DNA from: Sphingobium sp.
GTDB taxonomy: Bacteria; Pseudomonadota; Alphaproteobacteria; Sphingomonadales; Sphingomonadaceae
DNA: 64,000 nucleotides
NCBI GenBank assembly: GCA_017744605.1
Contig: JAGIAZ010000001.1
Location: 372,001 to 436,000, forward strand
Direction of reading: 5' to 3'
How positions within the stretch are numbered: position 1 is the first letter of the stretch; the number at the start of each line of letters is the position of its first letter. The notes under the pieces are model-generated. The model ran no database searches and was not told the origin of the DNA. It worked only from the letters and a program-made list of their open reading frames with translations. This document shows positions 26,751-60,081 of this stretch, one piece after another. The position numbers and the translations under genes were made by a program.

Positions 26751-26754
26751 CAGC

Positions 26755-37235: not shown

Positions 37236-37249
37236 TTCCAGCAGAAGTC

Positions 37250-38803: not shown

Positions 38804-41800
38804 TTATCGGCAGTTCGAGTCATCAGGCGCGCTTGAATCCGGGCACCGCTTCCCTCCATTTGCAGACCCGAGAGGCCCGAGGACGTCGACTGTGATCAGC
38901 GAACGACGATTATTCGCCTGATTGTCGCCCGCGGCATTCGCCGCCTGTGCCGCGACTGCGGATGCCGCGGCGGCCGGGGTGGCGACCGCCGGGGTAACCG
39001 CGGCGGCCGGAACGCCCGTGATATCCCCAGCGGCTTTGAAATTATCCGCGTTGGCGACCCTAGCCGCCGCGACGACAACATTGCCGGACGCGCGAACGCC
39101 AGCATCGCCGGCATCCACCTCGCCCACGGGCGCAATGAGGATGACGTTCGAAGCCGGATCGGTGGGCGTGCGCTTGAAGGTTCCGATACCCGCGCCCGAG
39201 ACGCTGCCCGCGCTGTTGACCTCCGCCAAGCCGTTTTCATCGAAGCGCACGGTCACCGGCGGAAAGTTCGACGCGCTCTTTGGGCCTTGACCGGCATTCA
39301 GATCGCCGTTGGAGGACCACATGGTGATATCTCCGGACTGCTGCGTGAACACGCGGCTCTGATTGAGGATGAAGTCGCCGTCGGTGAAGGAACGGATCGC
39401 GCCGCCACGTAGCGTCAGTATGCCTTCGTAACCGAGCGGAATAGAAGCGATCTTGCCGTTCGAGAAGGGTTTGAGGTTCCCCGCTTCGAACAATAACGGC
39501 AGCGTTGTTGGGTTGGCATAGTCGAACGCAGTCGTCCGCCGGCTGGACTGATCGGCGGTCCTGACCACCGAACCGGCAATTACATCACCGCCGGGTCCGA
39601 GGATGGTGAGATCGCCACCCCGAACGGTCTGGAGAGTGGCAAGGCGCAAGTCGACATTGCCCGTGATCACACGTTCCGCCGCCTGCGGCTGGCCCTTGAC
39701 GATGTTGCGGACCGGTTCGCCCAACGGATGATCCACCGAAATAGTCGAGGGATCGAGCGTGTAGGGCGCCAGATTGTCCGTATAGCCACGGCTTGTCGGG
39801 AATAGGGTCTGAACCGCCCGATATCCGCGGATATATTGCTGGTAGGATGGACCGTTGATGTCGCTGACCGCGGCGATCTCATGGAAGTAGAGGCCGTCCA
39901 CGAGGAAATCCTGCTGGCGCAGCGGGTCGACCTTGGCGAAAGCAGCATAGAGGTCCGCCATGCGTTCATAGGCCGCGTCCGCAAGGGTTGCCCGTCCGGT
40001 ATCGGTGTCAGGGAAGGTCTCGCCTCCGAAAATGGCCGCAAAGGCGATCGGGTCATTCGCCTTCAGCCATTCAGCCAGGAGCGGCGCGTAAATGAACTTG
40101 CTCCGGTCGGGACGCTTGTTGCCGAAAGCGTCCGTCACCTGGACGAACAGATCGCCGTCGAGATTGGTCAGATTTTCCGGGTTGAGATAGGTTTCTCGCA
40201 AGGCCGCATAATCGGCGCCGGCCGCCATGCCAAAACGCACGCTCAGCTTTGCCCCATCATCGACAAGCCAGGGGTTATAGTCGTTGCCGATCGTGCGGAT
40301 GCCGCCGGCGAAGCTGTATAGTTTCCTATCGATCGGCGACAGAACATCAGCGGAAGTGACGAACGGACCGAGATCCCGGCCCGCTTCGACGATAAACGTC
40401 CCCGGGCCGCCCAGGATGAAATTATTCGACTTGATGAAGGGCAGCGTCCCCAAGGCCACCGTCGTTCCGGTGATATCGCCTCCCGAGCGAACGCGTGTGA
40501 TATCAGTCGCCGACACGTTCTGACCGTTGAAGAACATGTCGACAATGTCACCGGATGCGGTGATCCGCGCCTGTTTCGGCAGGAAGAGAGCGGATTCGTC
40601 GATATCTCCATCGGTGTAAATACGGATCGGCTCGGGATCGCCCAGGTGCGTGATCCGCTGATTATGCTGCGCGCGAAGCGTCGCATCCGTCGTGGTCGAC
40701 GTCACGAACGGGACCGGCACGACCGGAATGCGCCCAGCCTGCTGGGCAGTGAACGCGCCACCGAGGATGCCCGGGTCCACATCGCTCATACCGAGCGCGA
40801 GATGCTCGATGCTGCCGTGGCTGAAGATCCGTAACTGCCCGTTCACCGACGGATACAGCAGTTGGAACGTATCCTGCGGCAGTTCGACCGCGCCTCGGAT
40901 CGAGGTGAGTTCGAGCGTGGGCGGGAGGAGCTGCACATAGGCGAGCGGCGAAATTTGACCCGGCGCGATATAGGCGGGCTGCTTGCCGAATTCCGTGTCG
41001 GTCCCAACACCCGCCGTCTGGGCGATCGTCGCTGCTTCGTTGGCCGAGAGTCCGAACGCCGCGTTGGGGCTGAAGAACCCGGCCGAGTTGACCGATTGGT
41101 CGACGCCAAGCGCCGACACGCTCGCGATCATTGCGCTGCCCTTCGCCGAGACATCGACCACGGCATCGGACAAACGCACCCGGAGATATTGTGGCGTATC
41201 GAGCGTAATGGGTTCGACGCCCATTTGCGCGATATTGCGCTCCGCATGGATCGTTGCCGCCCCCGTCGCGATGTCGAAACGTCCCCCGAGAATGTCACGC
41301 CCGGCGGCCGCACTCAGCGAGCCGCTTCCGAATGTGGCCATCACGTTGCCGGCATCCGTCGAAGTCGTGGTCACGCCGGAGAGGAGCGAAACGGTGAGGT
41401 CGGAAATATCCCGCCCCGCGCCAATCCGCACATCACCGCCACCCAGCGCGCCAACGCCCGAGGTGAAGTAGCTCGGCGACACGCCCAGTTCGGTATCAAC
41501 GCCGATCTGGCCGACCCGCCAGATTTGCGAAATCGAACCAATCGCCTGGATCGGCGCCGTGCTGGTGCCGCTGGCGCCACCCGAATAAGGTTGCCCCAGA
41601 ACACCCAGCAATGGCGTCCACGCATCGCGTTGCCCCAACACGTCACGGCCGGCATCAATCCAAACGTCGCCGCCACCCTGCGCGAGGACCGGCTGATTGT
41701 CGGTCAAGCCTCTAGGCGACGGAATGAAGGCCGCCATCTCGGTCGCCACGTCTAGATAAGGACTGTCGGGCGAGAAGGTTACGCGCTCGTTCGTGTCGAC

Positions 41801-44800
41801 AATCCGGGCGCTGATATCCGCCTGCGTGACGCGAACGCCGGCCGTATAGACCGCAGCGCTGGCGAACTGCGCTGCTTGTTGGTTCGGCAGACCGAAATAA
41901 CTCGGCTGTGAGACCTGGACCCCGTCATTATTGCGATAGACCGGCTGCTCGCTGCCGCGAAGGTCGACATCACGCGCCGCCGCCAAGGCGATGTTCCCAT
42001 CCCCCGTCCGGATGAATGTCCTGACATGCGCCTCATTGGGCGAATTGGCCGTCGCCTGCTGGTTCGCTGCGCCATATCGGATCACCGGCGCGTTGCGGTT
42101 GGCGGCATAGCCGGTCCGACCGCTGGCGAGCCCGGCCTGATAGGTCGGCTCGAAGGATTGCAGGAACGCGACGATCTCGTTGAGCGGCGCGATGATCCCG
42201 GTGGGCGCGGCAACCGAGCCAGTGAAGCTATATCCCTTGCCCGCGAAATAGCTCACCGCAGCCGCTCGCGCGTCGACGCCCAACCCGGCCGAACTTCCCC
42301 AGGTCAATTGGGTATAGGCATCGTCCTTGAGTTGGTTGAGGCCTCCGACGGTGGTCGTCTGGTCGAGCGTGTCGCCAATGTTGAAATTGACGTTGTTCGT
42401 ATCGGTGGTCGACCGCAGCAAATGGAATTGCAACGGGCCGTTATAAGTCACGGAGCCGCTCGCGGTGAGGCGGTAGGAATATTCCCCCGTCACCGTGAGA
42501 TCCGTGTTCAGCGCGCGATCGACGATCAGCGGGTTGGCCGAGAGATGCTCTCCCGCGCCGGCGACCAGGCGCAGGTCGGACGAATGCATCTCGACATTGC
42601 CATCGAGCAGCGGGAACAGTTCGCCGAAGCCCAGCGTGTCGCCGACCGGGTTGCCGTTCGCATCGACCGCGCCGGCCGCGCCGTTTCCAGTGAGCGCGAG
42701 CGGCGAGTTGACGTAGGGAGCCCCGGAGGTCAGCCCCCCCGGCGTGGCGGCCGAACTCAGCGTGATCGTGAGGGTGGAACTGACACCGGGGTTCGCACCA
42801 GTGCCATAGCTTGCGATGTTCCCGCAGAAGCCGGTCGCGCCGCCGCACGAGAACTGGATCGCCGGCGAATAGCCGCGCGCGCCGCCGCCAAGCTGGTAGT
42901 TGATATAGCCGGGGTCCGACTTATCGCGGAAGGTGAAGAAGCCATCCGAGATCGAGCGGTTCACGGTCAGATTGCCGCCCGCGCGCATGGTGATGACCGG
43001 CGCCTCTCCCCGCGCCGAGCCATCGACACGGTAGAGGAAGGTGGCGAAGCGATCGAGCAGCGCGCCTTCCTTGCCCGGAACGACCTTATACTGCGTCTGG
43101 GTGCCCGAGCTGATCTCGGGGATGACCTGCAGCACGCCCGCATCGACCGCGGCCTGGAGCTGCTGGGGCGAGAATGTCGCGGCGGCGAGGTTCCACTGGC
43201 TCGTCGTTTCAATGTCACCGCGCGCGGTGAGTTCAACACCCGGTCGCAACCTCATACCCGCGAGGCTGCTGCCATCGACCGTGGAGACGTCGAAGTCCTG
43301 GATGAACCTGACGAGCGATTTCGTCCCGTCGCCGAGGGTGAAGTTCTCGGTGAACGGGTTCGCGCCGGTGGCGGCAAAATCGAGCTGGATCGCGCCGTCG
43401 TTTCCGCGGGTGATGCCCGAATATTGTCCGTTGTCGATGAGCTGGTCGAGATCATAGCGCTGGAAGGCTTCCAATTGGATGCTGTCCGCGCCCAGAATCG
43501 TTCCGCGCTGGCTTAGCGAGACCTTATCGCGATTGTCGCCAATGACGGGCGCCCGGAAGGTTACCGTCCCGCCGGTGTCGGGTTCGACATAGCGATAGAC
43601 CGTGGTCGGCGTCCCGGTCGCCGGATCGGTGATGACCTGCGGCACCATACGACCAAGACCGCCGTCCGCCTGGGTGCGCCACGCGCCGACGTCGATGACT
43701 GCGCCCTCCGCGACCGTGATCACCGCGCTGTCACTCGCGACACCAAGGATCACATCGCCAGCGGCCGCCGGACGGGTATCGGTATCGGCATAACCGATGG
43801 TGTGCGTGTCGAGCCGGGAGGTCGAGGTCAAGGTGACCCCGGCATTGCCCCATAGCGTGATATCACCGCCATCGACGGCCGCGTCGCGCGCGGCATCGGC
43901 GGACAGGCCGGCAACGCCAACCCCGGCGGTGCTGATCGTCCCCGCGATTGTGATCGCCCCGACGTCGGATGTCAGGGTCACGCTCTTGGCGTTGATGGTT
44001 TGTCCCTGGTTCAGATCAAGACCGCCCGCGCCAACCCGGACCCAGAAGTCGCCGCCAAAATAGGCGCCATGGCGCGCGATGAAGAGCGCCAGATCGAAGG
44101 TGCCCGTACCGGAGTCGAACGTGAAGGAACCCTGGCGGGAGCCTGTGGCATCCGGGTTGATCGCGGCGTCGAGCGTGATCGCGCCATTGCTGGCGAGCAG
44201 ATTGAGCGTGCCCGCTTTCCCGATATTATTGTCGCTGGCGAGGCGCGACGCGCTGTCCGTCAGGATATTGCCGTTCGCCGCGAAGAGATTGATCGTGCCG
44301 CCGCCGGCCGAGACCGTCACGGCGTCCGCTTCGTCGCCGAAGGTGGCTTCATAACCGGGTGTCTCGAGCGCCGCGCCCGCGAGCGAAATGTCAGTCGCCG
44401 ACTGAATGTCGATAATGCCGGCGCTTGCCCGGATGCGGCCACCTTCGAGGACAGCCGAATGCACGCGGCTCTCAGCTGTCCCGATGCCGATGCGCGCGCC
44501 CGGCGCCGCATTGCCGTCGATCTTGGCATCAGCGTTGGTGCCCACCGCGCTCATCGCGAAATCGCCGGTGGTGAGGAAGCTATAATCCGGCCGGACGGCC
44601 TGGTCGCGCGGATCCGCCAGTTCGCTGCGATCCACGAGGAACGGCGCCCGCAGTGTCAAGGCGGTATCGCCCGTCGAGAAGCTGCCCTTCCCTTCGACAT
44701 ACATGCCGTCGGTCGCGCCCAGCGAAACGCCGTTGGCGAAGCCGGCCGCCGACATATCGTTGGCGCCAAAGGTGAGCGTCACCGCGTCGAGGGTGAAGTT

Positions 44801-47800
44801 GCCGGCGCTGCCGCAGAAACCGACGGTGGCGCACCCGTCCGTCGCCTTGGTGGAGTTCAGCAGCCGGACATTGCCCGCACCCACCACGACCGAACCGTCC
44901 GCCGCGGTGTCGGCGGTCGCGGCCAGCGTCGCGGTATCGAGCACGAGATCGTTGAACTGATGCGTCCCCGCCGAGAAGCGGATCGCGCCGGGCGAACGGA
45001 TCGTAAGCCGCTCCGCGGTCGCCAACTTACCCTCAAGCGACGTGCCGATCGCGCCGGCTTCGCCAGCCGCCGCCGCGTTATCGTCGAACCGAATGGCTTG
45101 GCCGCCGATGGCGACCCATTTGGCAGCGAGGTTCGCATCGTTCGACGCGGAGAAGGTGCCGCTCGAATCCAGCGCGAGCGCGTCGCCGGATATGGAAGCC
45201 GCTCCGATCTCGATCGCGGACGCGCCAGTGCCAGAGCGGGTCATCAGTCGTTCGTTGCCATTGGCGAGCCGGAGCATCGACCCGGCGGTGGTCGAGAGGT
45301 AGTCGGCATCCGATTGGGTCCCGACATTGCCAATTGCCGCGAGCCGCGCGCCATCCTCGATCGCCAGCTTCGAATTGGTCCCACCCACGACCAGCAGCAG
45401 TTCGGGCGCCTGGATTTGCGCATCGCCCGCAACCGTCACGTTCGTCGCCGACGCTGCGATGGTCGTCGTGCCATCGGCATTTTCGGTCCGCTGGCCACCG
45501 ATCAGCAGGCTGGTCGCATTGAGCGCGGCCAGCGTGTTCCCGGTGATCAGGAGGGTGCCATCGCTCGCCTCCCCTTCCTCACCAGCGATAAGGATCTTCT
45601 GGCCAAGAATATCGAACTGGCCGCCCTGCCCGCCATCGACTGCCGTGGTATCGAACACACCCGCGACACGCAGTTCGCTGAGCGGCGCGAGCACCACGCG
45701 CGCGGCGTCGAGCGGCAGTCGGGGCCGCCCGGTCCCGTTCTTGTCGGCCAGGTGGGACAGGTAGTCGGAACCGCCGGTGGTGATGATCTGCGAATATTTG
45801 AGGAAGGTGTCCTTGCTCTGGACGGTGAAAGAATGGCGGGTGGATTCCGCAATACCCGTCCCGGCATAGCCGAACGTGCCGCCGACGATGACGCTTCCGT
45901 CCAGCAAGCGCGTGCTGGTGCCTGGAATCAGCGCTGGCGCGTCCGTGTTCTCGACCAGTCGCAGAGCGCCCGGAATCGACATGGCGTATTTCGCCGGCAC
46001 GAGGAGATATTCGCCGCCGGCAACGCCGTTGCCGCCGTCGAGGAACACGCTGCGGCCGGCGCTGGCGCCATAGAGGTCGACAGGCCCCGCACTGCCGTAG
46101 TCGGCCGAATAACTGGGGTCATAGGGCGCGATCTTGCCGATCTGGTCGACGGGCACGAGTGCGAAGACCTGCCGCTGATCGGCGAACTGATAGCCGATCC
46201 CGGTCGCCGCATTATAGCCGTTGCTGCTGAAGGGATCGCGGTTGAAGCGGTCGAGCACATCGCGAGACCCGCCGACGCCGCTCTGAAATTCATAAGCATA
46301 GACGTCGCCGCCGCCACGGCCATCGAAGAGGGCGCCCGCCTCCTGGACGATCGAATCCGCCGAAAGACGCAGCTCGCCGGTGGGCAGCTTGGTGATCGGC
46401 GTGGTCAGGGTCGGGAAATAATATTCAACGCCATCGGTCGTGGTGCCATAGGGAACGTTCAGCCCCGCACCCGATACGGTGGTGATGCTTCCAGCCCCGA
46501 AGGTGACCGATTTCGTGGGCGTGGCAAACGGCCCGCTTCCATTGGCGAGGCGGATCGCGGCCGAGTTGCCAAGCTCGATCAAACCGAGCGGCGCCGCGAG
46601 ATAACCGTTCTGGACGATGTTCTCCGCAAGGACGCTGATATGGGTGCCGGCGGAGAGCGGCGCGGACGCATTGGGATTGAGGTAGGTGTCGCCGAAGGTA
46701 ATCGTGTGATGGCCGAGCGCCGCGATGTAGAAGGGCATCGTGGCAGCGGCCGTCCTGCCTTCCAGCAGCGCCTGCAGGTTACCGGTGCCGGTCGTGGCGT
46801 AGGTCCGGCCGGCATCGATCGTCAGGTCGCCAGACGTGAGCAGGCCGCCGTCATAGGTCGGCGCATTGGCGACGAAGTTGGAAGTCACCCCGATCAATCT
46901 AACATCGCCCGGTGTCGCGAGCGTGATCGAGCCGATTGACCCGTCGATGTTGATCGCGCCCGCAACGTCGATCCCCTGCGCACCGCCGAACAGTGTGACG
47001 CGCGCGTCGCCCTCATTCGCACCGATGACGGTGTTGGCGCCGAGACGGCTCGCGAGGCGGACATACCCCGCCTTGATCGTCGCGTCGCTTCCGGCGGTGG
47101 CCTTCACGAAGACGTTCGCGTCCGCTGTATAGGGCACGCTGGCGATGAGCGGATCCTGCGAGGTGACCATCAGTGCCTTGCGCAGGGTCAGCGAGAAATC
47201 GCCGTCCAGGGTGAGATTGCCGCGTGCGATCAAGCTGTCGAAACCACTCTGCGCAATGAGCGAGGTCGCGAGGTAGTTTGCGCCCGCTCCATCGCTGGTG
47301 CCGACCGTCGGGTTCAGCCATTCGAGCGTGCCGCCTTCTGCGCGTGCATCGCCGCCCCTCGCGTTAATGGCGGTGGATCCGAGCGTTCCGCCCGCCAGCG
47401 CGGAGATGGTGCCGGCCTTGCTCCACTCCAGATAGGGCGAATAGATGCCGAGGCCGACCGCCTGGTCGACAACGAAACTCGTGCCGCTGATATCTAGCGT
47501 GGCATCGTCATCGCGGACCAGCGTCCCGCCCGAGAATCCATCGGCGCGCGTGGTGCGGGACGATTGGCGCGAAATCTGGCGCGACGAGGCGAGTTCAAGC
47601 GCACCGCCCCCGAGCACGACGGCATCGCGCACCTGCAGGCCGTTGGGACGGAAAGGCGCGCGCGGATTGACGAGCGCGACACCCGAGAGATCCGTCACGC
47701 TGCCTGCGTCGAGCAGGACTCCTTGGCCCTGATCGAGCAGGCCGCGGAAATAGATGAGCCGATCCGCCCCTTCTTTCGTCACCAGTTCTCGGTTGGTCAG

Positions 47801-50800
47801 GAGCCGGCCCGCGATCGCCGGATCGGTGACGCCAGTGGCATTGGCGGCGGATTCAATGAAGCGTCCGGCCTCATCACGCGCCCCGCCGAACGCCTGTGCG
47901 AGATCGTCGACCCCAAGCCCGCCGATGATCAGGCTGCCGACCAGATCATTGCGCTGCGAGATCGTCCCGCCGTGCAGGATGATATTCCCGGCATTATAGA
48001 GCTTGTTCACGGTCAGACTGGCACCCGGAGCGCCGACGATCTGCCCGCCGGCAAGCACGTCCAGTTCGGTGAGCCCGCCCAGCACCAGATTCGCGGCGCG
48101 CCGGTCCCAGAGCGCGTCATTCGTCGTCGGCGCAAGGAACGATTGATCGGTCAATCTCGCGCCCGTGCCGAGCCCGCGCAGGGCCCGGCTCTGGTCCGCC
48201 GACAAGAGCGTGGGCAGCAGCCATTGGGTCAGATCGAACGTTTCACCCGCGCCGACCACGAGCCGCGTGGTTTCGAGGAAGGCCGACTTGCCTCCGCGAT
48301 CGTTCGCAAACACGTCATCGACGATCCGCGAGCGATAGCTCGAAAGCGAGAGCGTCCCGAAGCCCGTCGTGCGGAAGAAGTCCAACCCGATATGGGTGCT
48401 GCCGGCATGATTGTCCGAACCGAAGCTGATGTCCGGCGCGATTAGGTCGAAGGTTCCACCGCCCGCGAAACCGAAGCCCTTGATGCTCGCCGCGCCAATA
48501 TCCACCGTCGAACGGGGCGTGGGCACCAACGCCGGGAAAACCGGATCGACATTGAAGCCGCCGGGAACCGGGGTGAAATCAACCGACTGATTGGTGCCTT
48601 CGATCGGCTTGTCACCAGCGGCATTGCCCTCGGTGTCGCCGAGGATCGCGCCGCTCGCCGTAAGGCTGGTCGAGGCATAGACAGTCGCGTTGATCAACGA
48701 GACGTTGCCGCCCTTCCCGTCCAGCAGGAGGCCGCCGACCGGGGTCACATATCCACCGGAACTGACATCGAGCTGGCCACTGACTCGAATACTGCCGCTC
48801 AGGTCGATGGCTTGCGTCGCGGTCGGGATGCTGCTGCCGATCGCCGCAAAAACGCGCGACGCCGTCGTCAGGCTGATGTTCCCGCCGTCGCTGAACGCCC
48901 CCCCGCGCCGGATACCGGCTTCGGTGAAGTCATTGACCCACAAACCGGCCGTCGAAAGCGAGCCGGTGACGACGACGTCGAACGGATTCAGCGCGCCTGG
49001 ATCATTGTGGAAGAGATAGTCGGCCGGAAGATCATCGCCATTACCGTTGCCATAAAGCCCCTGGCGGAACGCGGATCCATTGCTGAAATTCGCATCCAGC
49101 GTGCCCGCGCTTCGTGGATCGCGCGACTTGCCGAACAGAACGGTCTCGGCCTCGATCGAGCCGGACGGCGCGACGACCGTCCCGTCGAGCCGGATGGTCC
49201 GGCCAGCGGTCAGGGAGAGGGTTCCACCGCGGACGAGCTCGACGGACGACGCACCGGTGATCAACAGCGCGTCCGCGCTCTGAAGCGTGTTGGGCGCAGC
49301 GCCCGCGAACGTGATCGTGCCGGCGGCGGAGAGCGCAAGGTTCGACAAACCCGCGCCCGAAAGCATCTGGTCGTTGAGGAGCAGTTCGGACCAATCCGAT
49401 TCCACCGCCCCGCGCTCGCCATGATAGACGATCATGTCGCCGAGCGAATTGATCGTAAGCCCGCCTCCGGACGGTAGCTGGTACGGAGTGCGCTGGAGGA
49501 GGCGGCTGTCTCCCGCCAGAACGCCGCTCGGACGCTCGGAGAGGTTGATCTGGCGCTGGCCGGCGAAGGCGTTGCCGATGAAGGTGCCATCGACCGCGAC
49601 AGCCGCGGCATCGATGGTCAGCGCGCCGGCATCGCGTCCTTCGTCATAGGCCTGGTCGTAGCGGCGCGTTTCCGTCGTCGCGTTGAGGAAGGTCTTCAGC
49701 GAGCCGAAGCGTGGCTGGATCGAACTGAACCCCTCCGCGACCCCGACATAGACATCATTCGGGTTGGCCTGGCTAATGTCGACGATGCGCCCATCATTGG
49801 TGATAAGCTTGCTGGTCTTGATCAGCCCGGCGGCATAGCTGACCCAGCCACCCGAAAAGTCGATGACCGCGCCGCCAGCCACATGGACGGATGGCGCCGT
49901 GGCTACGTTGACATTGCTGAAATTGGTGAGTTCGCTGGTCTGGAGATTGACGGAGCCGCCCTTGGTCATGAACTCCGCCGCGGAGGCGGATATCTGACTG
50001 GCGAGACTGCCCGCCTCGATCAGCGGCGAGCCGACCCAGGCCACACCATCGTCCCTGACGCCGGTGACCCGCGGATCGACGTAGAGCGTCGCGCCGTTCA
50101 GCGTGAAATTGCCGTCCAGCACCACTTCCCGGTAATTGGGCGTGTCGCGCAATTCGCCGCGCTTGACCGGCGTGATCTCGATCTGATTGCGCGAGGCGTC
50201 GAGCTGGACGTCCTTGAGGCCGCTGACATCGATCACCGCGCCGGTCGCGATATCGATATGGCCCGGATGGGCCGTATCGAACGCGGTCTTCTGCGAGAGA
50301 TCGGAAACCGTGTTCGCGCCCACGGCCACATTTGCACCCGGCGCATAGATCAGGGCGTTCTGCCCCATCACAAGGTCGGTCGCGACCATACCCCCGACCG
50401 GTTGTCCGGGATAAAGGACCTGCGTGCCGATTTCGAGCTGCGACGCCTTGAATTTCGCCGGCGCGTCGGCCGAGCCCTGCGGGATGGTCTCGCCATTGTC
50501 GTCGGCGATCATTTCGATGCCGCTCGCCATCGCCGCGTTCGGGCTTCCGGCAAGCGTGACCTGTCCCGCCGTGAGCGAAATCTTGCCGTTGCGCGAGACG
50601 CTGGTGGTGGTCGAGAGAAGCCCGGAATGCTCGATCGTGCCGTCGGCGCCGGTGCCCAGCGAGATATAGCCGCGCTTGGATTCTATCAGACCGCTGTTGA
50701 CGATCGACCCATCAGCCTGCCCGCTGAACACATAGCTGTTGAGCTTGAAGCCGCGGACATTGGGATCGGGCTCGCTATCGGCACCCGTCGACTGCTGGAA

Positions 50801-51937: not shown

Positions 51938-52027
51938 TGAACGGCTCCGGCGGGGCTTTGGTCGGGACGCGATCCGGCGCGCCCGCGGTGATGCGCAGGG
52001 AATTGGATGATCGGGGGCAAGGCGGGC

Positions 52028-52519
52028 CTATTGGCCATTGGGCTGTCGTCCCCCTTGTGCGGCGGCGCCATCGGGCGCCGGCGTGGCCGGAGGCGGTGTG
52101 CGCCGGGCGCCTGCATCCCACTTGTTGTCATAGACGCGATCGCCCATCGACTGGAGATCGGCCTCAAACTTGCGGCGACCATTGTCGAACGGGAGAAACT
52201 GCCCGCGCTGGTAGCGTTTCTCATAGGCGGCGATCAGCTCGTTCGCGATGCCGACAAGGCGCTCGTTGCGCTCGCGCGCGGCCTTCAGCGCCACCTCAAG
52301 GTCCTGCTGGTTCGCCACCAGCGCGCGGAGCCGGACGATCTCCGCCTGCGCGGATACGAGATCCTCGCGGAGCGCGGTGTTCTGCGCGTCCGCGCTCAGC
52401 GTGGCAACATCCGGTGCCCCAGCAGCCGGCGCCGTCGTCTGGGCAAGCGCCGGGGCAGCAAGAGCAGCCAGCCCAAGGAGGCCGCCGATGACGGCCGAAA
52501 AGAGAGCCTCGCGCCGCAT
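52028..52519 (-). CDS. Periplasmic coiled-coil protein of the TPS operon
   Basis: The 163-residue protein has a signal peptide (cleavage near APALAQ, about 27). A predicted coiled coil follows (about 45-100, rich in Ala, Leu, Glu and Arg: LREDLVSAQAEIVRLRALVA), and the end is Pro/Gly-rich and disordered. The family is not recognised. Its ATG shares bases with the stop of the porin gene (ATGA at 52519-52516), and it lies directly before the giant exoprotein gene. A chaperone or spacer role for exoprotein export is an inference from position only. Confidence 0.65.
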   Translation of the reverse strand: MRREALFSAVIGGLLGLAALAAPALAQTTAPAAGAPDVATLSADAQNTALREDLVSAQAEIVRLRALVANQQDLEVALKAARERNERLVGIANELIAAYEKRYQRGQFLPFDNGRRKFEADLQSMGDRVYDNKWDAGARRTPPPATPAPDGAAAQGGRQPNGQ

Positions 52520-54333
52520 CAGAAGGCCAGGTTGAGATCGAGTTGCAGGACGTCGATCGCGAACGGATCGCCGACGATCTCATTGGCGCTGAGCCAGCGC
52601 GCGCCGAGCACCACATTCTTGTACGGCGCCCAGGCGCCGCCGATGAAATAGCCCTTGGCGTTGGTGCCGCCGAGATGGAAATCGCTGTCGGTGAAGGCGT
52701 CGGGCACCGCATCGCTGCCGAGGCGCTTGTAGCCAGCGTTGATCGCCCACGCGCCCCGATTGGCGCGGCGCGGATTGATCGAGAACAGTTCAGGGTGACC
52801 GATCGAGAAATAACCGGCCCAAGCCTCGTTACTGCCGATCCAGCGCCCCGTGGCGCCAGTGCCGCAAACGATGCCGCTCACGTTGGTAAGCGGACCGCCC
52901 GTCGGGCCTTCCTTACAGTCGTTCTGCGGATCGACGCCGAAATTGTACAGGAAATTGCCAGTCAGCTTGGCCTGCACGCCCGCCGAGATCGGCACGGTGA
53001 CGGAGCCGTTCAGATCCAGGACGCGGAAGGCATATTTCAGGCCGAAATATTGCGGCTCGAACACCGGCGCTGCGCCTTTCTGCGCAATGTCGAAGGTCCG
53101 CAGGAACATGAGCGTGTTGCCCTTGGTCGGATTGAGCGGGATCAGACCATCGGTCGAACAGAAGGTGCTCGGGACATCGAGCGTGTAGACGTCGCATGGG
53201 TCGGAGAGATGACCACGCATATAGGTGAAATCGTGATAGGCGCCGGCCAGGCGGGCTTCGATCCCGCCCGCGAACGTCTTGCCGATCTCGACCTGCCCGC
53301 TGAAGATGTAGCGGTCGCGGAAGTTGCGCTTGTTGAAGGCGCGCGACGGGAAATTGTCGTCGCCCGGATCGAGCGGAAACGCCCCGCCGCGCAGCGCGAA
53401 CATGAAGTCATCGCCGTGGCCCAGGATCTTCGCCACGTCGATCTGCCCCGCCGCGCCATCGAACGCCAGGTCCGGGTCGTACATGAGATCGGTCGTGGTC
53501 AGCGGGTTGTCGAACCGGCCGACCCAGGCAGTGATACCGGGGATGATCTCCCCCTTTGCATAAGCGAGCTGCAGCCACAGATCGCGCTTGCGCAGGCCAC
53601 CCATCATCGTCGCGTTGGTCGAGATCGGGCCGGCATCATCACCGGTGGCGAGCTGGAACCCGAGCTGGAAGCGCTCGGCGACCGTCGCCTCGATACCGAT
53701 GCGCGCGCGCGACTGGAACTTGCTCAGGCGGTTGTTGGTGGCGTTGAGCAGCGGGACGGCGAAAGGCGCCTTGGAAGTAATGTCGTGCGGCCCGGTCGCG
53801 TTGAATGCGGGAACGTCCACGATCTGGTTGGAATTGGTCTTGGCATAGAGGTCCGAGACCGAGCGCAGACGCAAATCCCCGGTCAGGCGAACATTGCGCA
53901 CCCAGTCCGGCGCGGCCTCGCCGGGCGCGGCCCAATGCTCTTCCTTGGCCTGCGCCAGCACCTCGTTGCGCAATTCTTCCTTGATCTGCGCGCGCACCGT
54001 CTCGGGCACATAGGGGACGCGAACGGTTCCGGCCGGCGGCGGCGGCAGCGCCGCCACGGCGACGCCCGACGGCGCGGCGGCCTGGGCCTGGGCGGCGCGG
54101 ACCTGCGTGGCTTCGGCCTGCGCCTGTGCCATCAGCGCGTCGCCCTTGTCCCGGGTCAAAACGCCCTGCTCGACCAGAAGCCGGACAAGATTGACCATCG
54201 CGCTGTCCGACCGGGCGGTTGGCGTGACGGCAGCCTCCTGTGCAAGGGAGGGAGTACACCATAGCAGGGTGACCACCGCCACGCTCGCGCCCAGCGTGCG
54301 ACTCACAGGGCGACCTTTCAACCGAACAGACAT
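52519..54333 (-). CDS. Putative porin (Porin_5-type) with N-terminal helical region
   Basis: The 604-residue protein has a signal peptide (cleavage near PSLAQ, about 32). A helical segment follows (LVRLLVEQGVLTRDKGDALM), a feature of the putative porin family, then an Ala/Gln-rich linker and a beta-barrel. The barrel has many aromatic-ended strands and finishes with DVLQLDLNLAF, a C-terminal Phe expected for outer-membrane barrels recognised by BamA. It lies between tonB and the coiled-coil gene. It may serve as a TonB-linked or accessory outer-membrane protein of the secretion system, or simply as a porin; the cluster position favours the former. Confidence 0.78.
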   Translation of the reverse strand: MSVRLKGRPVSRTLGASVAVVTLLWCTPSLAQEAAVTPTARSDSAMVNLVRLLVEQGVLTRDKGDALMAQAQAEATQVRAAQAQAAAPSGVAVAALPPPPAGTVRVPYVPETVRAQIKEELRNEVLAQAKEEHWAAPGEAAPDWVRNVRLTGDLRLRSVSDLYAKTNSNQIVDVPAFNATGPHDITSKAPFAVPLLNATNNRLSKFQSRARIGIEATVAERFQLGFQLATGDDAGPISTNATMMGGLRKRDLWLQLAYAKGEIIPGITAWVGRFDNPLTTTDLMYDPDLAFDGAAGQIDVAKILGHGDDFMFALRGGAFPLDPGDDNFPSRAFNKRNFRDRYIFSGQVEIGKTFAGGIEARLAGAYHDFTYMRGHLSDPCDVYTLDVPSTFCSTDGLIPLNPTKGNTLMFLRTFDIAQKGAAPVFEPQYFGLKYAFRVLDLNGSVTVPISAGVQAKLTGNFLYNFGVDPQNDCKEGPTGGPLTNVSGIVCGTGATGRWIGSNEAWAGYFSIGHPELFSINPRRANRGAWAINAGYKRLGSDAVPDAFTDSDFHLGGTNAKGYFIGGAWAPYKNVVLGARWLSANEIVGDPFAIDVLQLDLNLAF

Positions 54334-54352
54334 CCAAGAACCCCTTCTGATT

Positions 54353-55084
54353 TCAGTAGGCGCGGCGGCCGCGCACGGTGACTTTCTGCGGAAACTCCAT
54401 CGCCGCCGGCGGGGGATTGAGCCCGCGCACGGCGGCGAGGATCGCCGCGAGTTTCTTCATGGTTTCGTCGTCGCTCCGGCCGCGTCCGGAGAGGAACTGA
54501 ACCCCGGTGACGCGTCCGTCGGGCGTGACGTTGAGCGTGAAATCGGCCGAAAAAACGAGGCGGCTGAGCTTCTCGTCATCCTGCACCCGCTCCTGGAGCG
54601 CCGAGCTCAGGTAGCGGCGATAGAAGGCCTCGCTCATGCCCCCGCCGCCCGCAGCCGCGCCGCAATTGGTGCCAAGGCAAGTACCGCCGCCGCCCGGCGC
54701 ACCGATGCCGCCGCCATTGCCGGCGCGCAGGCCGTAGCTATCGGTGCCAGCCTGCGCGGGCGCGTTGATCGAGACCGGCGCAGCCTGCTGCTGAGGCGTC
54801 TTCGGGGCTTCCACCGGCGACGGCTGAGGCTGTTCGGTGGGTTCGGGCGGTTTCTCTTTCGGCTCCGGCGGTGGCGGCGGAGGAGGCGGTGGCGGGGGCA
54901 ACGGCACTACGTCGACCATCGACTTTGGGTCTTCGGTGATGCTGACCCCGCGAACCGCTGTGAGCTGATGATAGACGTACCATGCGAACGCGACGACAAG
55001 CAGCGCCCCGATCGCCCAGAGCAGGATGCTCATGAGCCGGCTCGAGCGCTCGGGCTCGAACTGGTCGAAGGTCGGCGCGCTCAT
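54353..55084 (-). CDS. tonB: TonB-family energy transducer
   Basis: The 243-residue protein has a cytoplasmic N-terminus, one membrane helix (about 18-40, MSILLWAIGALLVVAFAWYV), a Pro-rich spacer (a run of prolines then EPKEKPPEPTEQPQP) and a Gly-rich stretch. The C-terminal TonB domain includes FTLNVTPDGRVTGVQFLSG and a final NPPPAAMEFPQKV. This is the order expected of TonB, which carries proton-motive energy from ExbB-ExbD to outer-membrane proteins. It follows exbD and precedes a porin gene. A Cys pair (CLGTNC) in the spacer is unusual. Partners among TonB receptors are not in the window. Confidence 0.88.
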   Translation of the reverse strand: MSAPTFDQFEPERSSRLMSILLWAIGALLVVAFAWYVYHQLTAVRGVSITEDPKSMVDVVPLPPPPPPPPPPPEPKEKPPEPTEQPQPSPVEAPKTPQQQAAPVSINAPAQAGTDSYGLRAGNGGGIGAPGGGGTCLGTNCGAAAGGGGMSEAFYRRYLSSALQERVQDDEKLSRLVFSADFTLNVTPDGRVTGVQFLSGRGRSDDETMKKLAAILAAVRGLNPPPAAMEFPQKVTVRGRRAY

Positions 55085-55109
55085 CGCCTGTCCTCACCCG
55101 CACGCCTGG

Positions 55110-55652
55110 TCATGCCGCGGCACTCTCACGAGCAAAGGACGTTCCGCCCCTGCTTTCCCGTCGCGTCCACGCGCGGCCCGCCGGGGCACTCGCGCGGGCG
55201 AAGCGCATGCCGCTCCGGCGCCCGATATCCACTTGCGATGTCTGGATCGGGCCCGTCTGCTTGCCCGTCGCCAGACCGATCTTGCTGAGGTCGAGCTGGC
55301 GGCAGAGGTCGAGCACCTCGGCCACCTTGCCGTATTGCGCCGTCTGATCGCCCTTGAGCGTAATCGGTACGTCCGGATTACTGGCCTTGGCGTTGCGGAG
55401 CCGCGCTTCGAGATCGGCCATCGTCACCGCAACAGCGTCCACGTAAATCTGACCATCAGCCGTCACAGTAATCGCGATCGTCTTCGGCTGGGCCAGGCTC
55501 TGCGCCGCGCTCGCCTTCGGCAAATCGACCTTGATCCCCTGGATCTGCATCGACGCCATCAGGACGAAAATGATGAGGAGCACCATCATCACGTCGACCA
55601 TCGGCGTGATGTTGATGTCGTCGTATGCTTTGCGACCTTTGTTGATTTGCAT
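55110..55652 (-). CDS. exbD: ExbD-type proton channel subunit with C-terminal extension
   Basis: The 180-residue protein starts like ExbD (DDINITPMVDVMMVLLIIF, with the proton-handling Asp in the helix) and has the periplasmic domain (ITLKGDQTAQYGKVAEVLD). It matches ExbD/TolR over about 140 residues. The last 40 residues are Arg/Ser/Ala-rich and unusual for the family. Together with ExbB it drives TonB. It sits between exbB and tonB, 24 and 25 bases from its neighbours. Confidence 0.9.
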   Translation of the reverse strand: MQINKGRKAYDDINITPMVDVMMVLLIIFVLMASMQIQGIKVDLPKASAAQSLAQPKTIAITVTADGQIYVDAVAVTMADLEARLRNAKASNPDVPITLKGDQTAQYGKVAEVLDLCRQLDLSKIGLATGKQTGPIQTSQVDIGRRSGMRFARASAPAGRAWTRRESRGGTSFARESAAA

Positions 55653-55676
55653 GGCCGTTCTCCCCCGCCGCGCCCG

Positions 55677-57464
55677 TTATTCCGCGGTCTGCAGCGCCGG
55701 CGTCGGGCTGCCCTCGGTCTGCATTTCGGCAAGGCGGGTGATGAGGCGGTCGACGAACACGCGCATCTCATCCGAGAGCGCCGAAATTCGACTGTTGAGG
55801 TAGTTGTAGCCGAAGAGGGCCGGGATCGCGCAGGCGAGGCCCGCGATCGTCGCCATCAATGCCGCGGCCATGCCCGGCGCGATCGCCGTCACGTTGACGT
55901 CGCCCGACATGGCCACGCCGCCGAACGTGTTCATCACGCCCAGCACCGTGCCGAGCAGGCCGATGAAGGGTCCGCCCGAAATCGCGATGGTAAGCAGCAC
56001 CAGCCAGCTATCGAGCTTCTGGTTCTCTTCGACCACCACGGCATCGACCGCGGCGCGCATCGCCTCGACGCTTTCGCCCGAGAGCGGGCGCGTGCCGCGC
56101 ACTTGCCGCCGAACCTCCAGCTCTTCGATGCCGGTTTCATAGAGCCTGCCAAGCGGGGCTTGCTCGATTACCGCGAGCTCTCCGGCGCCGACGCCGTTGA
56201 CGTCCTTCATGGGCACGAGATGCTCATGGAGCGACCGGAACCGCTTCATGAACACGCGGTTCGCGCGCACGGCACGGCCGACATAGCGCGCCTTGGACAC
56301 GATCACGGCGATCGCGATCACCAGAATCCCCATGCAGAGCGTGATGATGCCGATGTCGATCGCTTCGATCTTGCCCAGCACGAAGAAGAAGGTGCCGCCG
56401 CCCGCGCTCTGCCGCTCGGCCTTATCGGCCACCGCGACGAGCTTGTTGTTCGGACCCTCGGCCTGCGCGTTGGCAAGGATCATCGCCGCCGGACGCGCGA
56501 CCTTGGAAAGGCGGACCTCGTCCAGCTCGCCGGAGAACGGCCGTCCAGGCGCTCCGCCCAGCGAGATTGGACCGGCCAGCGCCGGAAGCGGCCCTGCCCC
56601 CTTCCCCGCCTCGACGCCGTTCACGTAGAGGCGATATCCCTCAGCATCAGCGACGAAGCCCAGATGCGCCCATTCTCCAGCCTTGAGCGCCGCACCCGCC
56701 TGAACCCGCTGCTCGCCCACCAGCGCGAAGGGCGTTCCGTTCGAAAGACCAAGGATCAGCGAGCCGCGCGCAAAAACGGCCTGCTCGCCATTCGGTTGTT
56801 CCGGCTTGACCCAGGCTTCGATCGTGACCGGCGCGCCGGCCGCCATCGCCAGCGACGGCGAGTCCGGAACGATCAGTTCGCCCTGGCCCTGGAAACGGGC
56901 GGCGCGGGCGATGATGCCATTTTCATCGCTCGCGGGAGCGGCGTTCTGCGCGTTGTTGCGATTGGCGGTGAGGTCCGCCACGGCCTTACCGGCTGTCTCG
57001 CTGAAATGATAAGCGGCGACGGTGTCGGAATCATAGGTGCCCGCGACATTGCTTCCCGCCGGTGCGTTCTTGTTGCCGAAATAGATCCACAACTGGCGCT
57101 TTTCGCCGCCACTGAGATTGGGAACCGATACCCACAGCATCGCGAGATTATTGGATGCGTCATATCGCTCGATATGGAACGGCAGCGGCGTCTTGCCGTC
57201 GGTATCGACGACGCGCAGGTCGGCGCCGTTATCGAGCGCATCGCTGAACGTGAAGTTGCCGTCATGCAGGCGAACCAGCAGCACGGTCCGGCCGATCGCG
57301 CCGCTCAGATTGCCGCCGGTCGGCGTGGCGTCGACCGTCACGGCGCGCCGGTACGGCCAATCCTTGTTCCACCAACCCGAGCTTTGCGCATAGGCTGGCG
57401 CGGAGATCGCGAACATGGCGATCAGCCAGGTTAGAATTAGTCGGAACACAGCACGTACCCCCAT
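55677..57464 (-). CDS. ExbB/TolQ-type channel fused to exported DUF2341 and LamG-like domains
   Basis: The 595-residue protein has a signal peptide (cleavage near SAPAYAQ, about 27). A DUF2341-type domain follows (about 28-140, with WPYRRAVTVD and LWIYFGNKNAPAGSN), then a LamG/concanavalin-like domain (about 150-320, with VTIEAWVKPEQPNG and LDEVRLSKVARP). The MotA/TolQ/ExbB channel occupies the C-terminal 230 residues, with a helix near 375-395 and the signature GGPFIGLLGTVLGVMNTFGG. A normal ExbB is about 240 residues, so the exported part is an addition. It would form the proton channel with ExbD while placing a carbohydrate-binding-like module in the periplasm. It lies directly after tpsB (9 bases). 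Confidence 0.88.
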   Translation of the reverse strand: MGVRAVFRLILTWLIAMFAISAPAYAQSSGWWNKDWPYRRAVTVDATPTGGNLSGAIGRTVLLVRLHDGNFTFSDALDNGADLRVVDTDGKTPLPFHIERYDASNNLAMLWVSVPNLSGGEKRQLWIYFGNKNAPAGSNVAGTYDSDTVAAYHFSETAGKAVADLTANRNNAQNAAPASDENGIIARAARFQGQGELIVPDSPSLAMAAGAPVTIEAWVKPEQPNGEQAVFARGSLILGLSNGTPFALVGEQRVQAGAALKAGEWAHLGFVADAEGYRLYVNGVEAGKGAGPLPALAGPISLGGAPGRPFSGELDEVRLSKVARPAAMILANAQAEGPNNKLVAVADKAERQSAGGGTFFFVLGKIEAIDIGIITLCMGILVIAIAVIVSKARYVGRAVRANRVFMKRFRSLHEHLVPMKDVNGVGAGELAVIEQAPLGRLYETGIEELEVRRQVRGTRPLSGESVEAMRAAVDAVVVEENQKLDSWLVLLTIAISGGPFIGLLGTVLGVMNTFGGVAMSGDVNVTAIAPGMAAALMATIAGLACAIPALFGYNYLNSRISALSDEMRVFVDRLITRLAEMQTEGSPTPALQTAE

Positions 57465-57473
57465 CTTCTAAAA

Positions 57474-59279
57474 TTAAAATTCGCCTTTGAGCGAAAAGCC
57501 GTAGCGCGGGTCCCCACGCCTCGAGACAGGCCCATTCCGAAGCGGCACGCCGATCAGGAATTCACCCGTTAAAGTCTTGAAAAGCCGGTAGCGCACACCG
57601 GCGCCGACGCTTGCGATCCGGAAGCTCGGCGTCTGGCCGAGGGCCGGCGCGCGAACGCGCGCGTAGCCGAAGTCCGCGAAGCTGTAGAAGCGAAGCTGGT
57701 CGAGATACGGCCCGGTATATTGGCCCAGATCGGGCAACTGGCCTTCGATCGAGCTGATGAACCCGTTATCGCCAACCGCTTCGGAGACATAATAGCCCCG
57801 GACGTTGGTCATGCCGCCGATACCGAACTGCTCGTTGGTGACGAGCGGCGAGTCCGCGAACTGCCCCGCGAGCCGAAGCGCCAAGACATAGTCGCCCTGG
57901 AAGGTACGCGAATAATTCGCGTCCAGGTTGAAATGGACGAAATTCTCGTTCGCGTTGAACGAGCGCCCGCGCAGAAAGTCGACCGGCACGCCGACGCCGC
58001 CGTCCGGCAGATCGCACGTCGGGGCGTTGCCTGGGTCGGCCTTGCCGATGCTCTCGCACTTGGTCTGCTTGATGACGCGGAAGCCCGCGGTCGCGCCCAG
58101 CGTCAGGCCGTAGCTCTCATTCTCGCTGGAGCCGGCCAAGGTATATTCGGCCACCAGCGGGATGTAGCGGATCGGCGCCGGGTCGAGCGGTTTGTCTTCC
58201 AGGAAGATGCGCTCGTTGAAATCCTTGAAATCGAGCCCGAAGCTGATCTGCTGGAACGTCTCGCTCGGCAGCCGGTAAACGGCGCGCGCGCCGATCTGGA
58301 AACCGTCGCCCAGAACATTGGTGCCGCCAAGCGCCGCGACATTGCTGTTCGAGGTGTAGCCGTAGATCAGGAACGACCAAGGCGTGCCGACCAGCGGCGC
58401 ATTGTACGACCCGGAGAATACCTCGCTCTGGTTGCGATTCTGCGGCGCGACCGAATAGGTGAGCGAAAGCGTATGCCCCGCCCCCCACAGGTCGGTGTGT
58501 CGAACCGTCGCCGCCAGCCGCAGCGGCTCCGTCGACGGGCTGTTGTCGTTGTTGAGGTCGAGCGAGGCATGGAGCGGCCGGCTGTCGTCGACCTTGAGAT
58601 CGACATCGAGCGTGCCGGGAACCTGGCCGGGCGTGAACTTGGGCTCGACCGTGCGGTCGGCCACGCGGTTTGCCTGCTGGATGTCGCGCTGAAGCGCCTT
58701 GAAATCGATCGGCTGCCCTTCGGCGAGCGATGGCACCTGCGCGCGCACCACCGAAAGCGCGTGATGCTTGGATCCCACCACGCGCACGCGGCCGACGGGC
58801 GTCTCGTTGACGGCGATCTGGACGACGCCCTGCGAAAAGGTCTCCTCGGGCTGGACCGGGATATCGACCAGCACGCCCTCATAGCCCTTGGCCGCATAGG
58901 CATCCTGAAGCGCCTTTTGCGCCGCCATGACATCCTGATTGGTGCGATCGGGGCCGAGGAAGGGATAGATGATCTTTTCGATTTCGGCGGATGAAAGCTT
59001 GGTCGTCCCCGAGACGTCGATCGCCGCGATCATGAACTGGTTCGGCGCCCGCCGGGGCTCGGCGGACCGCGCCTCGGGCGAAGGAGCGGCCGGAGCATCC
59101 TGCGCGGCAACGGCCGTGGGAATGCAGGATGCTCCGACCACCAGGGCCGCGGCCAGCCTCAAGCGCACGCGCAGGGGGGAACGCTTGCGAGAGGCATTGG
59201 CCGCGACTGGCTCTGCGGCGGCGAGGCTGGCCTCGCGCCGTTGGACGGCAATAAGCATAGGAACGCTGAGGTCTCGCAT
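57474..59279 (-). CDS. Two-partner secretion transporter TpsB (FhaC/ShlB/HecB family)
   Basis: The 601-residue protein has a long N-terminal stretch before its signal peptide (LRLAAALVVGASCIPTAVAA, about 40-59), two POTRA domains (POTRA_2 about 83-160, then ShlB-type to about 235) and a 16-strand barrel. The L6-loop motif NVRGYYVSEAVGDNG appears near 490-505, and the chain ends YGFSLKGEF with the terminal Phe signal. TpsB proteins move the TpsA exoprotein across the outer membrane without ATP. The start codon lies one base after the luxR stop, so translation is coupled. The exoprotein gene is 5.5 kb downstream in the same direction. Confidence 0.93.
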   Translation of the reverse strand: MRDLSVPMLIAVQRREASLAAAEPVAANASRKRSPLRVRLRLAAALVVGASCIPTAVAAQDAPAAPSPEARSAEPRRAPNQFMIAAIDVSGTTKLSSAEIEKIIYPFLGPDRTNQDVMAAQKALQDAYAAKGYEGVLVDIPVQPEETFSQGVVQIAVNETPVGRVRVVGSKHHALSVVRAQVPSLAEGQPIDFKALQRDIQQANRVADRTVEPKFTPGQVPGTLDVDLKVDDSRPLHASLDLNNDNSPSTEPLRLAATVRHTDLWGAGHTLSLTYSVAPQNRNQSEVFSGSYNAPLVGTPWSFLIYGYTSNSNVAALGGTNVLGDGFQIGARAVYRLPSETFQQISFGLDFKDFNERIFLEDKPLDPAPIRYIPLVAEYTLAGSSENESYGLTLGATAGFRVIKQTKCESIGKADPGNAPTCDLPDGGVGVPVDFLRGRSFNANENFVHFNLDANYSRTFQGDYVLALRLAGQFADSPLVTNEQFGIGGMTNVRGYYVSEAVGDNGFISSIEGQLPDLGQYTGPYLDQLRFYSFADFGYARVRAPALGQTPSFRIASVGAGVRYRLFKTLTGEFLIGVPLRNGPVSRRGDPRYGFSLKGEF

Positions 59280-59280
59280 A

Positions 59281-60081
59281 TCAGATTTGGATCAGGCCGG
59301 AGGAGAGAGCGATCGCGACGGCATGCACCCGGTTCGCCGCACCGAGTTTGCTGACGATGTTTTCGAAGTGGAGTTCCACCGTTCGTTTCCCGATACCGAG
59401 GTACCGGGCGGCCTCGAGCGGCTTCGCGCCCGCAGCCGCAAGGCGGAGGCAGGCCAGTTCCTTGTCGGTCAGCGGGTCCGCCGGCGCCGTGCTTGGCGGT
59501 ATGATATCCTTGGCGCTGCCATGGAAGCCGATCGCGTGGAACAGGAGGGCCTGAGCCTCGAGCCGCATAAGCGCCGCGATGTCGTCGGCCGCACGCCCGA
59601 GGAGGGTAAGATAGGCCGGCCCCGACAGATAATCCTGGACCGGAATGGCGATGCCGGCGGCAACGCCCCGCACACGCTCCACGCTGAGCCAGGAGCGATG
59701 CTCGTCCGGCAGTTCCAGATTGTCCTTGGTGTTCCAGCCGAAAGGCAGGAGGCCGCGGATCGCTTGCTGGGCGGATGGATCGCCGGCCCGCCAAGGATCG
59801 GCCTCCTCCCCCAGCGAGGACAGAAAACGCAGCGGCGGGCGCTCTGACTGCCGCCCTTCCCCAAGGCTATGACCGATATGCGTGTATCGCGCGCCGGAGA
59901 ACCCGAATGCGGCCGCGAAACGGTGAAGCCATGCACGAAGGTCCGACGGCAAGCTCGCGCCGCCCAGATCGTGCCCGTCAACCATACCGAGAGCACGCGG
60001 AAGCTCCGCGGCCCATACCGGAAAATTTCCGGCGAGCCACGCCCCCCCCTCCTGGTACTCGACGGCACCGCCCACGAACAT
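59281..60081 (-). CDS. LuxR-family regulator, first gene of the secretion operon
   Basis: The 266-residue protein has an N-terminal region of the autoinducer-binding type (about 20-175). The C-terminal LuxR helix-turn-helix includes LTDKELACLRLAAAGAKP and then IGKRTVELHFENIVSKLGA. It should be a cytoplasmic DNA-binding regulator of the operon it heads. No LuxI synthase gene is present, so it looks like a LuxR solo, possibly sensing a signal made elsewhere. Whether it keeps all acyl-homoserine-lactone contacts cannot be decided by eye. The upstream region is AT-rich, and the divergent gene encodes an STN-TonB-like protein. Confidence 0.8.
   Translation of the reverse strand: MFVGGAVEYQEGGAWLAGNFPVWAAELPRALGMVDGHDLGGASLPSDLRAWLHRFAAAFGFSGARYTHIGHSLGEGRQSERPPLRFLSSLGEEADPWRAGDPSAQQAIRGLLPFGWNTKDNLELPDEHRSWLSVERVRGVAAGIAIPVQDYLSGPAYLTLLGRAADDIAALMRLEAQALLFHAIGFHGSAKDIIPPSTAPADPLTDKELACLRLAAAGAKPLEAARYLGIGKRTVELHFENIVSKLGAANRVHAVAIALSSGLIQI

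Follow-up and report, generated by a model that had tools for sequence, protein, structure and literature searches.

A run of eight adjoining genes in a 64,000-nucleotide stretch of a Sphingobium sp. genome (contig JAGIAZ010000001.1, positions 372,001 to 436,000; hereafter the window) joins the two genes of a two-partner secretion (TPS, type Vb) system, tpsB and a giant tpsA, to genes for a Ton-type proton motor (ExbB, ExbD and TonB) and a porin (window positions 38804-60081, minus strand). The cluster is best read, from its sequence, as a sphingomonad version of a type Vb subtype that would couple a giant TpsA of the DUF3739 type to a Ton-type proton motor. Type V systems move very long chains with neither ATP nor a gradient to draw on, a feat still in need of explanation, and every sampled genome with an intact gene for a DUF3739-class exoprotein brings its own proton motor. 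We hypothesize, at roughly even odds (about 0.5), an energised branch of type V secretion in which export, pore gating or retention of the DUF3739 exoprotein would depend on proton motive force; this estimate covers the joint claim that a motor with a lectin-domain ExbB reaches through the envelope to act on TpsB, on the porin and on an N-terminal extension of TpsA.

The initial annotation had regarded a TPS operon with a dedicated energy module as a system not yet described. Its novelty claim for the gene set did not stand, since the set has been in print for Pseudomonas aeruginosa since 2009 (PMC2729926; also PMC4971064 and PMC7035377; cited papers are represented here and below by excerpts), whereas a conserved Ton set tied to this TPS type did. 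The PUMA3 regulon of P. aeruginosa comprises PA0690 (tpsA), PA0692 (tpsB), PA0693-0694 (exbBD homologues), PA0695 (tonB) and PA0696, and homologues of the TPS, ExbBD and PA0696 genes were reported beside PUMA3 in another six genomes, from Pseudomonas, Burkholderia, Rhodopseudomonas and Janthinobacterium (PMC2729926, 2009). One promoter serves phdA, pdtB, exbB2D2, tonB4 and PA0696-PA0701, and PhoB controls the PUMA3 genes (PMC4971064); PA0696 is described as a putative outer membrane porin, PA0697 as resembling channel-forming colicins in structure, and the associated TonB system as "still uncharacterized" (PMC7035377). As far as our literature searches reach, the new elements are the strict tie to DUF3739 exoproteins, the spread of the module and the altered ExbB, TpsB and TpsA parts. 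The open-access search returned no paper on DUF3739 and, in the excerpts retrieved for DUF2341 with ExbB, no function for such domains.

Gene order and co-occurrence with DUF3739 exoproteins

The run begins with luxR (59281-60081), encoding a LuxR-type regulator with Autoind_bind and GerE domains (Pfam), and tpsB (57474-59279), encoding an Omp85-type TPS transporter identified by its POTRA_2 and ShlB domains, an AlphaFold2 model and Protein Data Bank (PDB) matches. The motor genes follow: an exbB fusion (55677-57464; DUF2341, Laminin_G_3 and MotA_ExbB by Pfam and alignments), exbD (55110-55652; 180 residues, Pfam E 8.4e-34, with the channel Asp in TPMVDV as supported by a motif tally) and a gene for a TonB-like energy transducer (54353-55084) with a poly-Pro spacer, a C-terminus of TonB_2 type by family and one transmembrane helix by eye. 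The remaining genes encode a Porin_5 porin (52519-54333; Pfam E 1.3e-141, AlphaFold2, Foldseek), a coiled-coil protein (52028-52519) in the position of PA0697, with a signal peptide by eye and no informative Pfam family, and the 4377-residue TpsA exoprotein (38804-51937; Pfam and NCBIfam). All eight frames of the leftward run that the initial annotation had proposed, giant TpsA included, were present at these minus-strand coordinates with short gaps or overlaps (1, 9, 24, 25, 19, −1 and 90 bp from luxR to tpsA, maximum 90); frames and gaps were counted from the earliest start codon available, and the true starts may lie elsewhere. Among the loci compared, luxR is the immediate upstream neighbour of tpsB in just the window and four others (L040, L063, L064 and L065; hidden Markov model (HMM) built from the window protein and its matches), and we treat it as a lineage-specific neighbour outside the core. 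Terminator-like patterns in the region were at background level (6 found, 6.6 expected), and an Rfam scan of the window gave no family at the gathering threshold. One terminator-like stem with a T-run (57495-57480, minus strand) overlaps the 3' end of tpsB.

Co-occurrence was assessed in 299 genomes drawn over the phylum, 246 drawn evenly from the order and 190 from an earlier class draw. In the phylum draw, the ExbB fusion (E ≤ 1e-60) and DUF3739 (E ≤ 1e-8) occurred in the same 9 genomes, which span six family labels; in one of these, G688, the fusion match is partial and at a contig end. The hypergeometric probability of this overlap, a figure that ignores shared ancestry, is ~2e-17. At the order level, the DUF2341-LamG part of the fusion was found in 8/246 genomes (E ≤ 1e-20), all among the 9 with DUF3739 over the cut-off (10 at E ≤ 0.001), and full-length Porin_5 (E < 1e-100) occurred in the same 8 (12 counting weak partial matches). 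Whole-fusion matches among the 190 genomes of the class draw were seen in the window genome, G087 and G169, the last in two pieces. The ninth DUF3739 genome of the order draw, G376 (contig C8), holds a 794-residue frame that represents the C-terminal piece only (tblastn), and neither a TPS-domain match nor, apart from a weak STN match, any other module gene turned up within 20 kb. We set it aside as a case of DUF3739 without the module, because it is an orphan C-terminal piece with no TPS domain in that 20 kb.

A genome scan for the fusion returned at least 588 matching stretches, at least 569 of which encode relatives. The best 80 of these relatives comprised 72 from Pseudomonadota, 7 from Verrucomicrobiota and 1 from Anaeromyxobacter, and since many are metagenome bins, the rarer phyla need care. 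Together with seven further loci and the window, and after removal of four duplicates (L032-L035), they gave 88 distinct loci, of which 16 were too short and 72 had enough flanking sequence. All 72 carried exbD and a TonB-like gene downstream; the porin was present in 70, tpsB in 68, the coiled-coil gene in 59 and tpsA within 12 kb in 46, this last count being held down by flanks of 10 kb. As the loci were chosen by the fusion, these counts show what accompanies it, and the genome draws test the reverse. The initial annotation had proposed a genome search for the cluster and named a lack of conservation outside close relatives as grounds for giving it up; the cluster proved conserved far beyond them, from sphingomonads to Verrucomicrobiota bins and also on plasmids. 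Its view that the TonB-ExbB-ExbD set belongs with this TPS type is likewise borne out by the shared genomes of the phylum draw and by recurrence across the 72 loci.

Ordinary TPS loci looked different. Among 20 TpsB loci hand-picked near the top of the ShlB list, none had a match to the exbB fusion, exbD, tonB, porin or coiled-coil families nearby (E 1e-5); in 15 of them the sequence covered ~5-7 kb to either side of the barrel match, while in the other 5 one side was short (1.6-3 kb) and could hide a module. Of six module loci run alongside, five showed fusion, exbD and tonB, the exception being the split locus of G240, where exbB-exbD-tonB lie on one contig and tpsA, the coiled-coil gene, the porin and tpsB on another. 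The G240 parts are thus kept in one genome though apart, unless the draft assembly hides a link. With ShlB in 106/246 genomes of the order (105 over the cut-off) and no module in the controls, we rejected the idea that the module belongs to every two-partner system. Because the gene order recurs in relatives with proteins down to ~35–45% identity, the run is more than chance, and a chance neighbourhood is ruled out by this recurring order, the matching genome sets and the empty control loci.

The module is also found on plasmids. A Klebsiella quasipneumoniae plasmid typed as conjugative (NZ_CP084804.1) carries it, with annotated genes for two filamentous hemagglutinin family proteins, a TonB-type receptor (weak STN and TonB_2 matches), a sigma factor, DUF4880, ShlB, ExbB, ExbD and TonB, and further genes for a putative porin, a hypothetical protein, YbjN, a peptidylprolyl isomerase and a LysR regulator. 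Carriage as one unit speaks against the view that these are merely co-regulated envelope genes that are inherited jointly but have no physical or functional link to the export of TpsA. In zebrafish, P. aeruginosa strains overexpressing vreI and carrying single insertions in tpsA, tpsB, the tonB homologue or PA0696 matched the wild type in virulence (PMC2729926), which would suit mere co-regulation. We nevertheless rate it the most improbable of the readings considered, given the plasmid, the identical genome sets of fusion and DUF3739, and the retention of the genes through rearrangements and in the split genome G240.

Parts of the motor, the transporter and the exoprotein

Both TPS partners are recognizable by domain. 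The exoprotein has an N-terminal TPS domain at residues ~160-265 (PF05860, E 5.5e-18; TIGR01901, E 2.1e-17), which places it in type Vb, and DUF3739 at residues 4202-4311 (Pfam, E 1.8e-30). An N-terminal extension (residues ~40-145) precedes the TPS domain. Such extensions are often Ala-rich in relatives, and a motif used to locate the domain was found in 40/50 TpsA frames, its median position being 178.5 when counted from the earliest start available, with 10 frames unmatched and some of the 50 antisense or truncated. TpsB combines POTRA_2, of which Pfam marks one copy, with a ShlB barrel, and its R494, G495 and Y496 (VRGY motif) are invariant in 39 sequences. Its AlphaFold2 model (predicted local distance difference test (pLDDT) 83.8) has CdiB and FhaC as best PDB matches; residues 1-74 are of low confidence, with no long helix there. 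The linker between predicted signal peptide and POTRA1 is also short in this group, with a median length of 20.5 (quartiles 11-37, n = 82, a set that includes duplicates and one misassigned row) compared with 43.5 residues (40-51, n = 20) in ordinary TpsBs, a contrast blunted by a crude signal-peptide finder and by outliers in both sets. Where FhaC carries its H1 plug helix ahead of POTRA1, the window TpsB has only a brief linker, and from model and linker it seems to do without that helix. The helix is not required for membership in two-partner secretion.

The ExbB fusion differs from familiar motors in having DUF2341 and LamG (ConA-like) domains, presumably periplasmic, ahead of the MotA/TolQ/ExbB channel. 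The channel Thr pair is kept (Thr506 and Thr539, invariant in 12 aligned sequences), and the channel Asp of ExbD lies in a TPxxD motif in 91/92 ExbD frames. The window ExbD is longer than most relatives (180 residues, mostly 133-139 elsewhere) through an extra Arg-rich C-terminal tail, which may be a frameshift or a late change. The window TonB alone had no Pfam match; TonB_2 was recognized in 34/38 members of its family, and the family profile matched HasB best in the PDB (E 4.4e-5), with TolA and TonB at ~0.003 among many chance Pro-rich matches. The pattern GxDx[FY]G[LV] was present in only 12/84 TonB sequences.

The porin model (pLDDT 84.7) predicts a barrel with, by our count, 16 long strands and three N-terminal helices outside it (45-55, 61-85 and 111-131). 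Foldseek placed OmpM1, which we take to be a stalked porin, at the top (TM-score 0.41/0.73). The residues YVP at aligned positions 108-110, conserved in 64/77 porins, form at most a candidate contact site for TonB. A longer motif in the arm, [YF]VPE, was weakened as a candidate by its presence in just 36/77.

These parts suggest the following mechanism. The chain of ~4400 residues would leave through the TpsB barrel, which would lack an H1 plug helix, and ExbB-ExbD would use the proton gradient to drive TonB. TonB would in turn exert force on a partner in the outer membrane. The likeliest partner is the Porin_5 protein, gripped by its conserved N-terminal arm, or else TpsB together with the TpsA extension; porin arm, TpsB and extension are candidates because no TonB-dependent receptor was found in the cluster. 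The ExbB LamG domain and the coiled-coil protein may help to hold the trans-envelope assembly together. We consider it probable from these sequences that the Ton motor acts on the TPS step in some way. What it would do there is more tentative: a role in retaining or gating the exoprotein is possible at somewhat less than even odds, by sequence and by analogy, and the most likely job of the motor would then be gating the pore and keeping the completed fibre attached to the cell, much as has been proposed for SiiA-SiiB and SiiE, rather than pulling the whole chain. A TpsB lacking the plug helix would need another way of closing, which fits gating. Powering or rescuing the export of the very long chain appears unlikely.

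Several observations, besides the coarse linker measurement and the zebrafish result, weigh against an energised system. The position of E. coli ExbB Glu176 (numbering from PMC8599685) is occupied by Ala534 in the window and by Ala in 92/92 fusion frames, four of which come from duplicate genomes, whereas Glu is present in 14/17 non-fusion relatives, the other three having no readable motif. This Glu is described as essential in E. coli, and the authors doubt that a Sphingobium ExbB3 without it acts as an ExbB (PMC8599685). Pfam detected no TonB-dependent receptor domain in the nine cluster proteins. Four of the 72 loci have no tpsB nearby (L078, from a split genome, L129, L137 and L138), two of them (L078 and L137) also without a same-strand porin and tpsA, and in the TpsAs of L036 and L040 the N-terminal extension is slight or missing. 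In liposomes, moreover, type V translocation has been reconstituted with no external energy supply (PMC5422565). Should the motor act on the exoprotein, the textbook view that no energy is needed would have an exception, and one operon would suffice to test the energy question; should it not, some other reason would have to be sought for a private Ton system that lacks a receptor. In both cases, exbB2-exbD2-tonB4 of P. aeruginosa gain a likely partner in the DUF3739-type exoproteins.

Wider neighbourhood, signalling and uptake

Divergent from luxR lies a gene (60436-61212, plus strand) for a VreA-like protein with an STN domain (37.1 bits) and a TonB-type C-terminal domain (TIGR01352, 28.4 bits), both over the cut-off; it matches the VreA architecture described in PMC2729926. 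Its place beside the cluster is compatible with a signalling loop in which the Ton complex and the VreA-like protein report the state of the channel to a regulator, an extracytoplasmic function (ECF) sigma and anti-sigma pair in Pseudomonas and perhaps LuxR here. On two plasmids, genes annotated as STN or TonB, sigma factor and FecR/DUF4880 stand beside the module, and similar gene sets were recognized by eye in L150, L154 and L155. Against such a loop, none of the 36 window proteins scanned with Pfam, the part of the genome that the scan covered, matched an ECF sigma factor or FecR, and signalling alone would not need a private ExbB-ExbD-TonB set; we regard it as highly unlikely to be what the motor is for. 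Several VreA-like (STN plus TonB) HMM matches were seen in L154 and L155, both on contig C105 of G613, where one such match, cut by the locus start, is followed by ECF-like and FecR-like frames (by eye) ahead of a 4215-residue TpsA.

On the other side of the run, 47 bp 3' of tpsA, lies a gene for a Hint_2-domain protein (37290-38756, minus strand). Homologues with 45–49% identity were found in four of eight genomes tested, namely the four Sphingomonas, and not in G217, G343, G398 or G240; in L064 and L065, where the sequence covered stops short of the tpsA end, the Hint_2 coordinates fit a place just after it. Next to the Hint_2 gene is one for a 629-residue protein with TPR and Sulfotransfer_3 domains (35373-37262, minus strand). 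A 617-residue PBP_like_2 protein is encoded at 31473-33326 (plus strand), and its neighbour at 33415-35262 has a weaker match to the same family, below the cut-off. Type II secretion genes (GspE, F, G, N_methyl pseudopilin-like frames, M and D) occupy 21956-30934 on the minus strand; in G548, too, the PBP_like_2 family occurs beside type II secretion genes and TpsA. These assignments are by Pfam.

The type II genes and the PBP_like_2 protein would suit a motor that serves uptake, with TpsA capturing or anchoring a nutrient source and TonB energising import through the porin, as HxuA-HxuB-HxuC do for haem. HxuABC provides a precedent for a TPS joined to a TonB-dependent transporter (PMC5422565), and the PUMA3 genes are under PhoB control (PMC4971064). 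Phosphate scavenging would fit, since the locus in P. aeruginosa reacts to a lack of phosphate and includes a phosphatase along with a type II system. The window porin, however, matches general porins, which are normally passive, no TonB-dependent plug domain was found in the cluster proteins, and in the sampled genomes the module tracks the exoprotein class. We therefore judge uptake distinctly unlikely and retain action of the motor on the TPS step as the preferred reading.

Comparison with known systems

The window shares with classical TPS (FhaB/FhaC, CdiA/CdiB) the TPS domain on TpsA and the POTRA_2 and ShlB domains on TpsB, whose model is closest to CdiB and FhaC. It differs in its private Ton motor and porin, in the apparent loss of the H1 plug helix and in the usual presence of a TpsA N-terminal extension; according to a review, no energy source powers type V secretion (PMC5422565).

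In Salmonella SPI4, the giant adhesin SiiE is retained under the control of SiiA-SiiB, a putative proton channel that has been likened to MotA/MotB, and an uncoupler lowers this retention (PMC6272769). As in the window, a proton channel stands beside a giant surface protein, a likeness that we treat as analogy; SiiE is an adhesin of another kind and uses a type I ABC exporter, and the excerpts of PMC6272769 mention neither TonB nor a porin. HxuABC of Haemophilus influenzae likewise has two-partner genes in one operon with a TonB-related gene. There, however, HxuC is itself a TonB-dependent transporter, and the operon as described in the review excerpts has three genes, without ExbB, ExbD or TonB (PMC5422565).

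With the ExbB-ExbD-TonB and TolQ-TolR-TolA motors, the window module shares the channel Thr pair, the ExbD Asp and, in most relatives, the TonB_2 C-terminus; the DUF2341-LamG part and Ala in place of Glu176 set its ExbB apart.

The closest known system is the PUMA3/VreI locus. Its order pdtB-exbB2-exbD2-tonB4-porin-PA0697, with the PAO1 side taken from descriptions in the papers, is that of the window from tpsB to the coiled-coil gene, and both have a giant TpsA, VreA or a VreA-like protein, and type II genes nearby (the hxc cluster near pdtA in P. aeruginosa). PdtA is credited with a role in nematode infection (review PMC5422565). The window differs in its LuxR, in the lack of an ECF/FecR pair, PpiC or YbjN among the proteins scanned, and in having tpsA last in the run, followed by the Hint_2 gene. 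G548 links the two: one contig carries an STN protein, GspD-E-F, PBP_like_2 and TpsA, and another a transposase-like gene, corresponding to PA0691 as first described, followed by tpsB, DUF2341-LamG-ExbB, exbD, tonB, Porin_5, the coiled-coil gene, PpiC and LysR. As G548 thus shows the PUMA3-type arrangement and HMMs of the window families recognize its proteins, the window locus, with its tpsB-exbB-exbD-tonB-porin run and giant TpsA, very likely belongs to the PUMA3/Pdt-type kind.

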